From Flavobacterium aquidurense (lineage in GTDB: Bacteria > Bacteroidota > Bacteroidia > Flavobacteriales > Flavobacteriaceae), in the NCBI RefSeq assembly GCF_001404985.1, contig NZ_JRLF01000006.1:62001-126000 (forward strand): a stretch of 64,000 bases of DNA. The letters are read 5' to 3'. A program made the position numbers and the translations under genes. The number at the start of each line of letters is the position of its first letter. Positions within the stretch are counted from its first letter, which is position 1. Shown here one piece after another: positions 9,406 through 22,295 of the stretch. The notes under the pieces were generated by a model. It worked only from the letters and a program-made list of their open reading frames with translations, had not been told where the DNA came from and ran no database searches.

Positions 9406-10194
9406 TTAAACTTTTCCTAAAGTGTACAATTGTTCCATTGTAGGCGTTAAACTTCCTCCTGCAGGCTCCAGAGTAATCCCAAAAGCTTCAGCTGAATCTG
9501 TTTGACTTACAGCAAAGATTTTTTGATCATTTCCTTCAAAATTATCAAGTAAACCAATACTTGTTGGTGTAAGAACCGGGCTTAATTTTAAAGACCAAAC
9601 TTGGTAAACCATTCCTTTTGGTGGAGTTGGTAAACCTGCAGCGTCAATATAAGTCGTTTTCGTTTCTTTGTTCCAGTATACTTTTGCAAATGATTTAGGA
9701 GAAACTGCCTGTCCGCCAAGTGTTACGCCGGTATTTTTAATATCCCTTACAATAGTCAGGTTTTTCTCTGTTTGTTTATTTTGCTGGTCTAAGAAAGCAT
9801 AATCTCTTTGTATTTTGTTTTTCTCAGTACCAACAGTAGCAATAGCATCTTTTGTTTTAGTAAGTTCCAGTGTTTGATATCCAAAACCTAAAAGTAATAA
9901 TACTGCTGCAGCCCATCCTACGTATTGTGACCAGTTCGACGCTGGTTTCATCTCTACTACTTTGCCGTGTTTCAATTCTAAACGGGCTTTTATCTTTTCG
10001 AAATTAGCTACAGAATGAAAAGGGGAGAAGCTTGATGATAAAGCTACAATAGCTTTTTCTATGGAAATGATTTCCTGTTCGACCTCCGGATTCTTTTTTG
10101 CCAGTTCCGCTATTTCCAGATTTTCAGTTTCGGTTAATAAACCATAAACATACAATTCCAGAATTCCTGATTCTATATATTCTTGTGCTTCCAT
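9406..10194 (-). CDS. Anti-sigma factor, RskA-type
   Basis: The 262-residue membrane protein has an N-terminal cytoplasmic helical sigma-binding region opening EYIESGILELYVYGLL. One membrane helix (WAAAVLLLLGFGY, near residue 95) follows. A periplasmic RskA domain contains the pattern GLPTPPKGMVYQVW. The ATG shares one nucleotide with the stop codon of the sigma gene (TAATG), so the two are translationally coupled. The protein should hold the sigma factor at the membrane until a signal releases it. The signal is unknown; glutathione peroxidase nearby hints at oxidative stress. Confidence 0.88.
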   Translation of the reverse strand: MEAQEYIESGILELYVYGLLTETENLEIAELAKKNPEVEQEIISIEKAIVALSSSFSPFHSVANFEKIKARLELKHGKVVEMKPASNWSQYVGWAAAVLLLLGFGYQTLELTKTKDAIATVGTEKNKIQRDYAFLDQQNKQTEKNLTIVRDIKNTGVTLGGQAVSPKSFAKVYWNKETKTTYIDAAGLPTPPKGMVYQVWSLKLSPVLTPTSIGLLDNFEGNDQKIFAVSQTDSAEAFGITLEPAGGSLTPTMEQLYTLGKV

Positions 10195-10724
10195 TATATT
10201 TTTAAATAATTACGTAAATCGTTAATACAGTTTCTGTTTTGTGTTTTGATAGTCCCCAATGGAATTGCTAATTCTTCTGAAGCTTCCTGTTGGGTATATC
10301 CTTTAAAAAATAATAAATCTATAATCTCAATACATTTTGGTTTCAGTTTTTTGACGAATTCCTGAATTCCAATTGTATCAATTCTATTAGTCAATTTATT
10401 GCTGTCGTCTAACAGATTTACGAAATTATCTGAAGATAGGTTTTTTTGGCTGTTATTAAAATTCTTTGATCTTAGCTTGTCAATCGATGTATTCCTAGCT
10501 ATATTAAGGATCCAGGTATAAAAACGACCTTTTCCTTCATTATAAGAATCTATATTTTTCCAGATTTTGACAAAAACTTCCTGCAAAACATCTTCGGCTT
10601 CTTCTCGATTTTTTATTAAAACATTGATGACAGAAAACAAACTTTTAGAGTACATATCATACAAATGGGTAAAAGCTCTTTCGTCTTTCTTGTAAATTAA
10701 AACTAACAACTCATCTTGACTCAT
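10194..10724 (-). CDS. ECF-type RNA polymerase sigma-70 factor
   Basis: The 176-residue protein has sigma region 2 in the first half (EEAEDVLQEVFVKIWKN and GRFYTWILNIARN) and sigma region 4 in the second half (GYTQQEASEELAIPLGTIKTQ, helix-turn-helix). It lacks regions 1 and 3, as ECF factors do. It heads the operon with its anti-sigma factor. A minus-strand promoter of the TAnnTTTG type was not clear. Two ECF-like promoter repeats on the opposite strand upstream may be its targets (see findings). Confidence 0.93.
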   Translation of the reverse strand: MSQDELLVLIYKKDERAFTHLYDMYSKSLFSVINVLIKNREEAEDVLQEVFVKIWKNIDSYNEGKGRFYTWILNIARNTSIDKLRSKNFNNSQKNLSSDNFVNLLDDSNKLTNRIDTIGIQEFVKKLKPKCIEIIDLLFFKGYTQQEASEELAIPLGTIKTQNRNCINDLRNYLKI

Positions 10725-10874: not shown

Positions 10875-10914
10875 CTCAATATTTTAAAACCAAAAGTAAT
10901 CCAATTACGTATAT
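10875..10914 (+). promoter_or_regulatory. ECF-like promoter repeat, copy 1
   Basis: The repeat begins CTCAATATTTTAAAACC and ends TTACGTATAT. AAAACC (-35-like) and CGTAT (-10-like) are about 16 nt apart, matching the AAC/CGT pattern typical of ECF promoters. It is not a TAnnTTTG promoter. Assignment to the adjacent sigma factor is inference. Confidence 0.45.
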
Positions 10915-11054
10915 GCTATTATAACATCAAACGATAATTCTGAAAATAGCAGAACGAAAGAAAACAGCTTCAAAATTTAAATTCGCGGAGTAGTTTCAAA
11001 ACGAAAGTGAGAGGTTAAAATTTAAAAAATTATTAAAATTTAAGTAAAGTAAAT

Positions 11055-11093
11055 CTCAATATTTAAAACCGAATGTCATGGGTTACGTATATA
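11055..11093 (+). promoter_or_regulatory. ECF-like promoter repeat, copy 2
   Basis: CTCAATATTTAAAACC, then GGTTACGTATATAC: the same two conserved blocks as copy 1 with about 15 nt between AAAACC and CGTAT. Transcription from here would start near 11098 and run to the terminator at 11442, producing an RNA of about 380 nt. Confidence 0.45.
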
Positions 11094-11197
11094 CTTTAAG
11101 AATATTGATTGTTGGATTAACAACAGTTTTGGCATTAACGAATTTTAATAGTGTTGATTTTCGAAATTCTATCATTTATAATAAAATTCAGATTTAA
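11078..11197 (+). CDS. Possible 39-residue hydrophobic peptide
   Basis: ATG at 11078 opens a frame starting MGYVYTLRILIVGLTTVLAL and ending at a TAA at 11195. Residues 8-21 could form one membrane helix. Its start lies inside the second ECF-like repeat, so it could only be translated from the copy 1 transcript. No homologue is recognised, and chance occurrence in AT-rich DNA is quite possible. Confidence 0.2.
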   Translation: MGYVYTLRILIVGLTTVLALTNFNSVDFRNSIIYNKIQI

Positions 11198-11212
11198 TAT
11201 AATATTTAATGG

Positions 11213-11380
11213 TTGATGTCCCCGGACTTCCAAACCGAAAATTAAAAATAAAATTTAAAATAGTTAGATTCATCTCATTATAAGAATTAGTAAATTTTAT
11301 AATATAAACGCCAGTAAACGATATAAAACAGAAAGATATTTAGATTTTAAATATAATTTTCACAATAACCGGGGCATCAA
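11213..11380 (+). ncRNA. Candidate structured RNA closed by a GC-rich long-range stem
   Basis: TTGATG (11213-11218) and CCCCGG (11220-11225) pair with CATCAA (11375-11380) and CCGGGG (11369-11374), 12 pairs with one bulged T. They enclose about 143 nt of AT-rich sequence. Two G-U pairs could extend the outer end. A terminator follows 60 nt later. It could also be the terminal inverted repeats of a small non-coding mobile element. Confidence 0.35.
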
Positions 11381-11441
11381 TTATAATAAAAAATATAAAA
11401 GCATAACAATTAATTCATGGTTTGATTTGTTTGTATGGGGG

Positions 11442-11480
11442 GAAGCCTAGCGTCTGATTAACGCTAGGCTTCAATTTTTT
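11442..11480 (+). terminator. Strong intrinsic terminator before gpx
   Basis: GAAGCCTAGCGT (11442-11453) pairs perfectly with ACGCTAGGCTTC (11461-11472) around a 7-nt loop, followed by AATTTTTT. No annotated gene precedes it on this strand, which is the main reason to expect a non-coding transcript upstream. Confidence 0.85.
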
Positions 11481-11563
11481 ATTTAACTTATGTTTAATAA
11501 AAATAAAGCAGGCAAAATATTTAATGAAAACAGATTTTAACTAATTTTATAAAAAATTAAACA

Positions 11564-12151
11564 ATGAAAAAAATAGTATTCATAGCTTGTAGTGTTGTCT
11601 TTTTATTAGGCACACAAATTCAGGCTCAAACAAGTAAAAATAAATTATCTAAAACAGATAAAGCCATGGCAAAAGAAAACATTTACCAATTTAAAGTTCA
11701 GGATTTATCAGGAGATACTTTTGATTTCGCCTCTCTAAAAGGTAAAAAAGTTATGATTGTAAATACTGCTTCAAAATGTGGATTAACTCCTCAGTACAAA
11801 GATCTTGAAGCTATTTACAAAGAGTATAAAGACAAAGGTTTTGTAATTGTAGGTTTTCCTGCTAATAATTTTGCCTCTCAGGAACCTGGTACTAACAAAG
11901 AAATCGAAACATTTTGCCAACAAAATTATGGTGTAACTTTTCCTATGATGGATAAAGTTTCTGTAAAAGGAGATGATATGTGCGAAGTTTATAAATTTCT
12001 GACGCAAAAATCCAAAAACGGATTACAGGATTCTGAAGTAGAATGGAACTTTCAAAAATACCTAATCAACGAAAAAGGAGAATTGGTTAAAGTAATCAAG
12101 CCAAGAACATTACCTACAGATCCTGAAGTGATCAATTGGATAAAAAGTTAA
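11564..12151 (+). CDS. Secreted glutathione peroxidase-family protein
   Basis: The 195-residue protein opens with a signal peptide (MKKIVFIACSVVFLLGTQIQAQ). The thioredoxin-like GPx domain has peroxidatic Cys72 in NTASKCGLTPQY, Gln106 in FPANNFASQEPG and W161-N162 in WNFQKYL, completing the catalytic set. A further Cys118 is in the position used as resolving Cys by thioredoxin-dependent GPx enzymes. It should reduce peroxides in the periplasm, probably with thioredoxin-type donors. No clear TAnnTTTG promoter lies in the 83 nt after the upstream terminator, so read-through or another sigma factor may express it. Confidence 0.9.
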   Translation: MKKIVFIACSVVFLLGTQIQAQTSKNKLSKTDKAMAKENIYQFKVQDLSGDTFDFASLKGKKVMIVNTASKCGLTPQYKDLEAIYKEYKDKGFVIVGFPANNFASQEPGTNKEIETFCQQNYGVTFPMMDKVSVKGDDMCEVYKFLTQKSKNGLQDSEVEWNFQKYLINEKGELVKVIKPRTLPTDPEVINWIKS

Positions 12152-22113: not shown

Positions 22114-22190
22114 TCATTATATTAAGTGAGCTTTTTAGATTTTTGATTTTTTTAAATTAAAATTAGGAATTTTTAGAAATTATAAGGAGC

Positions 22191-22270
22191 TATTTCCCGC
22201 TTTCGGCTATATCTTTTTTGAGAAGATGAAAAATCTTCTCAAAAAAGATATAGCCTTTATCGGGGCTAGG
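22191..22270. repeat. REP-like palindromic element with 23-bp perfect stem
   Basis: The core arms 22205-22227 and 22233-22255 are perfectly complementary over 23 nt around a GAAAA loop. They are flanked by TTCCCGCTTTC on the left and TTTATCGGGGCTA on the right, which also pair partly (CCCG/CGGG). The same flanks occur, inverted, at 32568-32629. This fits an extragenic palindrome family; no matching transposase is in the window. Confidence 0.75.
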
Positions 22271-22295
22271 ATTTTAGTATTCATAAAAAAAATAG

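Follow-up and report, generated by a model that had tools for sequence, protein, structure and literature searches.

Features of the locus

In the window (the whole stretch of 64,000 nucleotides of Flavobacterium aquidurense DNA that was analysed), an ECF sigma factor gene and a glutathione peroxidase gene enclose a region for which an original prediction, made from the sequence alone, had described a candidate non-coding RNA. The features of this region and of its neighbouring genes are:

9406..10194, minus strand: RskA-type anti-sigma factor gene (Pfam RskA_C, E 4e-18)
10194..10724, minus strand: ECF sigma factor gene, divergent from the RNA (Pfam Sigma70_r2 and r4)
10886..10915, plus strand: P1, an ECF-like promoter (AAAACC at 10886-10891, 14 bases, then a TACGTA -10 with its CGT at 10908-10910)
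11066..11089, plus strand: P2, a second promoter-like repeat, overlapping the start of the small ORF
11078..11197, plus strand: small ORF of 39 codons, MGYVYTLRILIVGLTTVLALTNFNSVDFRNSIIYNKIQI (ATG at 11078, to the stop at 11197)
11213-11225, plus strand: 5' arm of the closing stem (TTGATG 11213-11218, bulged T 11219, CCCCGG 11220-11225)
11226-11232, plus strand: conserved ACTTCCA, directly 3' of the 5' arm
11369-11380, plus strand: 3' arm of the closing stem (CCGGGG 11369-11374, CATCAA 11375-11380)
11416-11440, plus strand: U/G-rich single strand CATGGTTTGATTTGTTTGTATGGGG with the core GTTTGATTTGTTTG at 11420-11433, the proposed pairing region
11442-11480, plus strand: intrinsic terminator (12-bp stem, conserved loop and U tract)
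11564..12151, plus strand: glutathione peroxidase gene (GPX), the downstream neighbour, outside the RNA (Pfam GSHPx, E 2e-40)

Both helices were found in the sequence as they had been described: the closing stem comprises 12 bp with a single bulged T and arms separated by 143 nt, and the terminator, composed of GAAGCCTAGCGT (11442-11453), the loop CTGATTA (11454-11460), ACGCTAGGCTTC (11461-11472) and AATTTTTT (to 11480), pairs at 12/12 positions of its stem (11442-11472) without a mismatch. The stretch 11213-11380 folds at -29.7 kcal/mol (z = -4.29, 0/200 shuffles as good) and the longer stretch 11095-11480 at -78.7 kcal/mol (z = -3.00, 1/100 shuffles as good). The window contains 20 terminator-like hairpins, of which this terminator alone has a tract with at least 16 T/G in the 18 bases upstream.

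The original prediction had counted the promoter-like repeats into a transcription unit of about 380 nt. The two repeats are not equivalent, as only the first of them is widely conserved. A P1-like sequence was found in 126 of the 152 loci carrying the 3' module, and 14 of the other 26 have fewer than 900 bases upstream, while a TACGTA resembling that of P2 occurs in only three of 51 loci (L006, L007 and L010). We therefore rejected P2 as a general promoter, which it probably is not judging by this distribution. Since P2 also overlaps the start of the ORF, we infer that transcription would begin near 10917-10920, downstream of P1, and that the RNA ending at 11480 is likely to be about 560 nt long rather than 380. 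The conserved AAAACC..CGT box beside the sigma factor gene resembles an ECF-type promoter, and P1 and the equally spaced sites L180, L181 and L182 each lie upstream of a correctly oriented ORF. No ECF regulon is claimed, because the same pattern is not enriched across the genome (11 sites vs 10 in the control).

A Rfam 15 scan of the window returned only tRNA and Flavo-1, both outside this region, and between 10725 and 11563 no family reached its gathering score. The Flavo-1 RNA (RF01705) lies at 22189-22271 on the minus strand and scores 51.5 bits, over its gathering score. We also observed a conserved block, TTTAACTTATGTTTAAT..AAAATAAAG, at 11481-11512 on the plus strand between the terminator and GPX; it is similar in loci with an intact operon (see below) and perhaps belongs to the GPX promoter.

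Distribution, pairing and constraint

Using blastn, 79 of 299 genomes of the genus gave some match to the region, many of these short and AT-rich, and the strongest block was the 3' end. A covariance model of the 3' module found it in 56 of the 299 genomes at E ≤ 0.001; three of these hits were weak and 53 were at 1e-7 or better, the latter all in genomes of 4.4-6.7 Mb. The order ECF, RNA, GPX is kept in 51 of 56 related loci. The five exceptions were left out of the 56-locus alignment before counting: L011 is cut by a contig end, L053 (the same locus as L213, which was fetched with its full operon) has the module after a receptor gene, and L059, L060 and L061 are diverged or lie elsewhere. 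The ECF gene is more widespread than the RNA, with relatives at E ≤ 1e-60 in 200 of the 299 genomes. Of the 80 public stretches with the 3' pattern that were listed, out of 110 found, 69 bear the name Flavobacterium, including F. johnsoniae CI04; several of the others are without the hairpin and look like chance matches.

Additional copies were seen in some genomes. One of the diverged loci, L060 (genome G006, contig C11, 95622-95714), is a second 3' module alongside the usual one of its genome, and no ORF of at least 60 aa is directly adjacent to it. A second ECF copy is found elsewhere in the genome in G042, G049, G053, G182, G209 and G295; one second copy, L232, is also accompanied by an RskA-type gene, with no GPX match in its stretch.

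We examined both helices for compensatory change, which had been proposed as a check on the prediction. The arms of the closing stem could be parsed in 130 of 152 loci, giving 30 distinct arm pairs, and the 22 loci not parsed by our patterns were dropped. Both sides had changed in 5 of the 12 pairs and 96.7% of cells were paired. None of 500 shuffles matched four of our five measures and 13/500 matched the fifth (further pair types), and versions of the stem slid along the sequence scored far lower. A fixed spacer stood in for the loop letters. It should be noted that the patterns used to pick the arms are biased towards paired outer arms, so that the weight falls on the inner five pairs, where the test is fairer; their variants in relatives include CCCGG/CCGGG, CTCGG/CCGAG, TTCGG/CCGAA and CTTGG/CCAAG. 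For the terminator, 38 distinct 3' modules showed changes on both sides in 7 of the 12 pairs, with 0/500 shuffles matching four measures and 12/500 the fifth (again further pair types). Pairing has thus been kept through compensatory changes in both helices, and together with the conserved ECF-like promoter upstream this supports the predicted structured RNA with its own terminator.

The mean pairwise difference between loci was calculated for segments located by motif, in 51 loci or, for P1 and the arms, in 48. Four-fold sites of ECF and GPX differed by 0.449 (51 loci) or 0.451 (48 loci). The lowest values were 0.000 for the core, 0.016 for the terminator loop and 0.025 for the P1 -35, followed by 0.036 for the outer 5' arm, 0.072 for the 5' side of the terminator, 0.081 for the P1 -10 and 0.149 for ACTTCCA, the lowest being partly a selection effect because loci were recruited by similarity of the 3' block and segments were found by motif. 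The adjoining stretches differed by 0.454 upstream of the core, 0.669 within the loop of the closing stem and 0.590 before the 5' arm. The core GTTTGATTTGTTTG was found in 51/51 loci, which had been recruited by this very block, and across the 38 distinct 3' modules 13 of its 14 bases are invariant and one nearly so. In L052 and L055-L058 an extra long hairpin (GGACGGAAGC...AACAGTTCAGTTT...CTGAACTGTT...CTTCCG and variants) lies between the 3' arm and the seed.

Relationship to a divergent four-gene operon

We fetched 20 further loci, picked from ECF matches. Twelve of these (L213-L215 and L219-L227) have an intact operon transcribed divergently from the ECF gene, two (L216 and L231) have the receptor gene alone, and the remaining six are arranged otherwise. 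The operon of L213 encodes, by Pfam, two DUF4331 proteins, a TPR protein and a TonB receptor with CarbopepD_reg_2. When the 51 intergenic regions were compared to L213 by blastn, all 51 matched in the promoter region and at the 3' end, 47 in the GPX leader and 7 where gene 2 begins; the stem arms matched two short segments of the receptor gene, in 37 and 26 regions. There were no matches in gene 1, the remainder of gene 2, gene 3 or the remainder of the receptor gene. In 49 of the 51 regions the matches are colinear with the operon, and there were two stray matches between the terminator and GPX. The region in the window itself matched the promoter, 3' arm (E 0.008), 3' end and GPX leader of L213; its 5' arm and small ORF gave no blastn match there, so that their link to the operon is drawn through the relatives.

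The 5' arm corresponds to the receptor codons IVDxxGLP and the 3' arm to TITEAS. The stem itself (AGTTGATGCTTTCGG ... CCGAAGCATCAGCT) lies inside the intact receptor gene of L213, in the codons for IVDAFGLP and TITEASAI; by eye, neither the 11 other intact operons nor the two receptor-only loci have it. By inspection, the changes seen in the stem swap amino acids in the old receptor frame (Leu, Pro and Phe opposite Glu and Gly), which argues for selection on RNA. The full 3' module of L213, with GTTTGATTTGTTTG and a terminator carrying the CTGATTA loop, stands right after the stop codon of the intact receptor gene, as in an mRNA whose 3' end and terminator are shared with an sRNA; the locus in the window no longer has the operon. 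By eye, a U/G-rich tract and a hairpin also follow the receptor gene in most of the more distant intact operons, and in most of the intact operons AAAACC precedes a box with CGTAAATG rather than TACGTA; our P1 patterns had no match in the 20 fetched loci.

The relic L049 has kept the promoter and 3' end and lost the ORF and arms, and in L230 (G030) the operon is, by eye, apparently decaying together with its terminator. Gene 3 is present in G178 and in none of seven relic genomes searched, and no remnant of gene 1 was found in the leader in any of seven loci tested. A further relic, L217 (G275), has the promoter box and leader twice in a stretch of 797 bases and a diverged 3' module (by eye). 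In a tree of ECF and GPX the intact L213 pairs with the relic L049 (support 96) among the relics, with deep supports of 42-55; monophyly of the ORF-bearing relics was not rejected (AU p = 0.125, with a program warning of too few replicates). This branching may reflect either several losses, in each of which the same parts of the RNA survived, or a single loss and a later local regain. As far as comparison of sequences goes, the RNA unit is built from the remains of the four-gene operon, and the retention of promoter, tiny protein, stem and tail though the operon genes vanished suggests that the RNA itself is still needed.

The original prediction had held that no gene precedes the terminator, which we revise, as the 39-codon ORF is conserved in 43 of 51 loci (42 by the pattern M...KILIVGLTTVLALTNF and L048 by eye) and missing from eight (L049, L051, L052 and L054-L058). 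It has no match in Pfam. It resembles the start of operon gene 2, the DUF4331 lipoprotein, with the lipobox Cys lost in all 42 ORFs; the gene 2 start of L213, MKNINKFNILIVALTGVLTFTSC, is close to the small ORF of L045, MNNINKLKILIVALTSVLQFANF. In the protein, certain Leu, Thr and Ile columns never vary, although up to six codons encode them. Seven loci (L009, L021, L038, L039, L040, L042 and L043) contain in addition a hydrophobic ORF of 22-23 residues (e.g. MNLLKIFVLLVFILLFISIYKQ) between the small ORF and the 5' arm. It gave no blastn match to L213; its best score against any of 11 operons was reached by 0/300 shuffles in L021, L038, L039 and L043 and by 1, 3 and 8 of 300 in L042, L040 and L009, respectively. 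It could plausibly be what is left of the beginning of operon gene 3.

The small protein might itself be the product, in which case the transcript would be an ECF-controlled mRNA for a hydrophobic peptide of 38-60 residues and the stem and terminator its 3' UTR. The presence of the ORF in most loci would fit this, as would its codon changes: pN/pS is 0.24 over 16 codons (less informative if many recent operon losses are real), pN is below pS in 856/861 pairs and only 1/5000 permutations had as high a third-position excess. However, the eight loci without the ORF retain P1 and the 3' end, the conservation of the 3' core exceeds that of the ORF, and a signal like that of purifying selection could also arise if the operon was lost repeatedly and recently. 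We regard this explanation as unlikely.

Alternatively, the operon might simply be dead, with the terminator alone kept to insulate the peroxidase gene and the remainder being residue. The colinear erosion of the operon and the apparent joint decay of operon and terminator in L230 are what this would predict, but the stretches adjoining the core, loop and outer arm vary far more than these do, the closing stem still pairs through double changes, and a terminator needs neither a fixed loop nor a fixed U/G tract. It seems to us quite improbable that the region is residue of this kind.

Proposed function and comparison with known RNAs

We conclude that the region holds a real, conserved structured RNA with a small ORF, derived from operon remains and probably of about 560 nt. 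Our preferred reading, to which we would give a probability of roughly 0.55, is that this RNA is ECF-controlled and that its 3' end is a base-pairing sRNA which was once a 3' UTR and now stands free. The divergent ECF sigma factor, restrained by the RskA-type anti-sigma factor, would transcribe the RNA from P1. Ancestrally this would have been the mRNA of the four-gene operon (two DUF4331 proteins, a TPR lipoprotein and a TonB receptor), with a U/G-rich single strand and terminator in its 3' UTR. The coding parts would have eroded in this group of Flavobacterium, leaving the promoter, short ORF, 12-bp stem and 3' end. The 3' end would most likely act as an sRNA, with GUUUGAUUUGUUUG and the CUGAUUA loop pairing to mRNAs, so that the sigma factor could repress genes as well as activate them, and the closing stem may pack the upstream part away and protect the RNA.

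We searched for possible targets by the sequence of the pairing region. With at most two mismatches to CAAATCAAACCATG there were 76 sites, vs 46 in the control; among 29 sites that were inspected, 3 were at the start of an ORF, and no convincing target mRNA came from this search. A two-site pattern had 42 matches vs 1 in the control, a contrast which may mislead since the control words are probably rare. Also counting against the preferred reading are the lack of P1 enrichment across the genome, the relic L049 with neither ORF nor arms, the missing match to L213 at the window's own 5' arm and ORF, and the bias in the patterns by which the arms were picked.

Two other explanations were considered. 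The RNA could act in cis as a long leader of the peroxidase gene, regulating it through read-through of the terminator, as the position of GPX directly downstream in 51 of 56 loci would allow; with terminator and GPX about 1.6 kb apart in L213, a conserved block of its own upstream of GPX (11536-11563) and no alternative fold among the structures computed, this is very unlikely. The small non-autonomous mobile element offered as an alternative in the original prediction, with the two inverted arms 143 nt apart as its terminal repeats, was rejected and its probability is negligible, as a 401-base query matched the genome in full only once (four more matches span 27-45 bases each), 51 of 56 loci have the region at the same place between ECF and GPX, and both arms have counterparts in receptor codons.

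Returning to the free-standing sRNA, its birth by operon erosion can be stated more specifically, and more tentatively: it is possible, at rather less than even odds, that selection for RNA function preserved the receptor-frame stem and 3' UTR beyond the loss of the genes, perhaps in several parallel lineages, and that the start of a dead lipoprotein gene survived as a micro-protein in a dual-function transcript. The origin of bacterial sRNAs has mostly been guessed so far. As intact operon, partly eroded operon and free-standing RNA are found in one genus, the path from mRNA to sRNA may be traceable and testable here. The F. johnsoniae group gains an ECF-linked sRNA candidate with a defined pairing region, helices and a micro-protein, and other 'empty' regions beside ECF genes may conceal working remains of operons. 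In the openly available main texts that were searched we found no published description of this RNA; our searches also found nothing pertinent on sRNAs born from pseudogenes and no papers on DUF4331.

CpxQ and MicL are examples of 3'-UTR-derived sRNAs. Another is MalH of E. coli, which the candidate would resemble, according to the account of MalH in PMC8081044, in that the sRNA forms the end of an operon transcript and uses the terminator of that transcript. The candidate differs from sRNAs of the MalH type in that most of the group has lost the operon, and the 3' end persists on its own together with the operon's promoter. RybB, MicA and MicL are Sigma-E-dependent sRNAs, in which an sRNA serves as the repressing arm of an ECF sigma factor. 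The candidate would be like these in that its ECF sigma factor would repress through an sRNA, although they belong to a different phylum and work with different RNA-binding proteins. Within the genus, PMC9723704 describes for Flavobacterium psychrophilum ECF-type promoters with a CGT box, SM6 promoters and the sRNA Rfp18, which like the candidate is a conserved structured RNA.

The RNA does not belong to the Rfam family BTnc201 (MasB, RF04177), scoring 22.0 bits vs the 105 required, with E values from the covariance model of 0.035 on 111 bases and 0.27 on 839 bases. According to PMC10994844, MasB of Bacteroides thetaiotaomicron differs from the candidate in being about 100 nt long and governed by Cur, and the passages on MasB in that paper describe no ORF and no operon origin. 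The pairing sites tested there are positions 41-50 and 69-74, which by our own mapping are the U/G tract and the terminator-loop region of MasB. Both RNAs have a U/G-rich single strand immediately 5' of the terminator hairpin, and by this analogy MasB appears to be the nearest working parallel to the candidate RNA.
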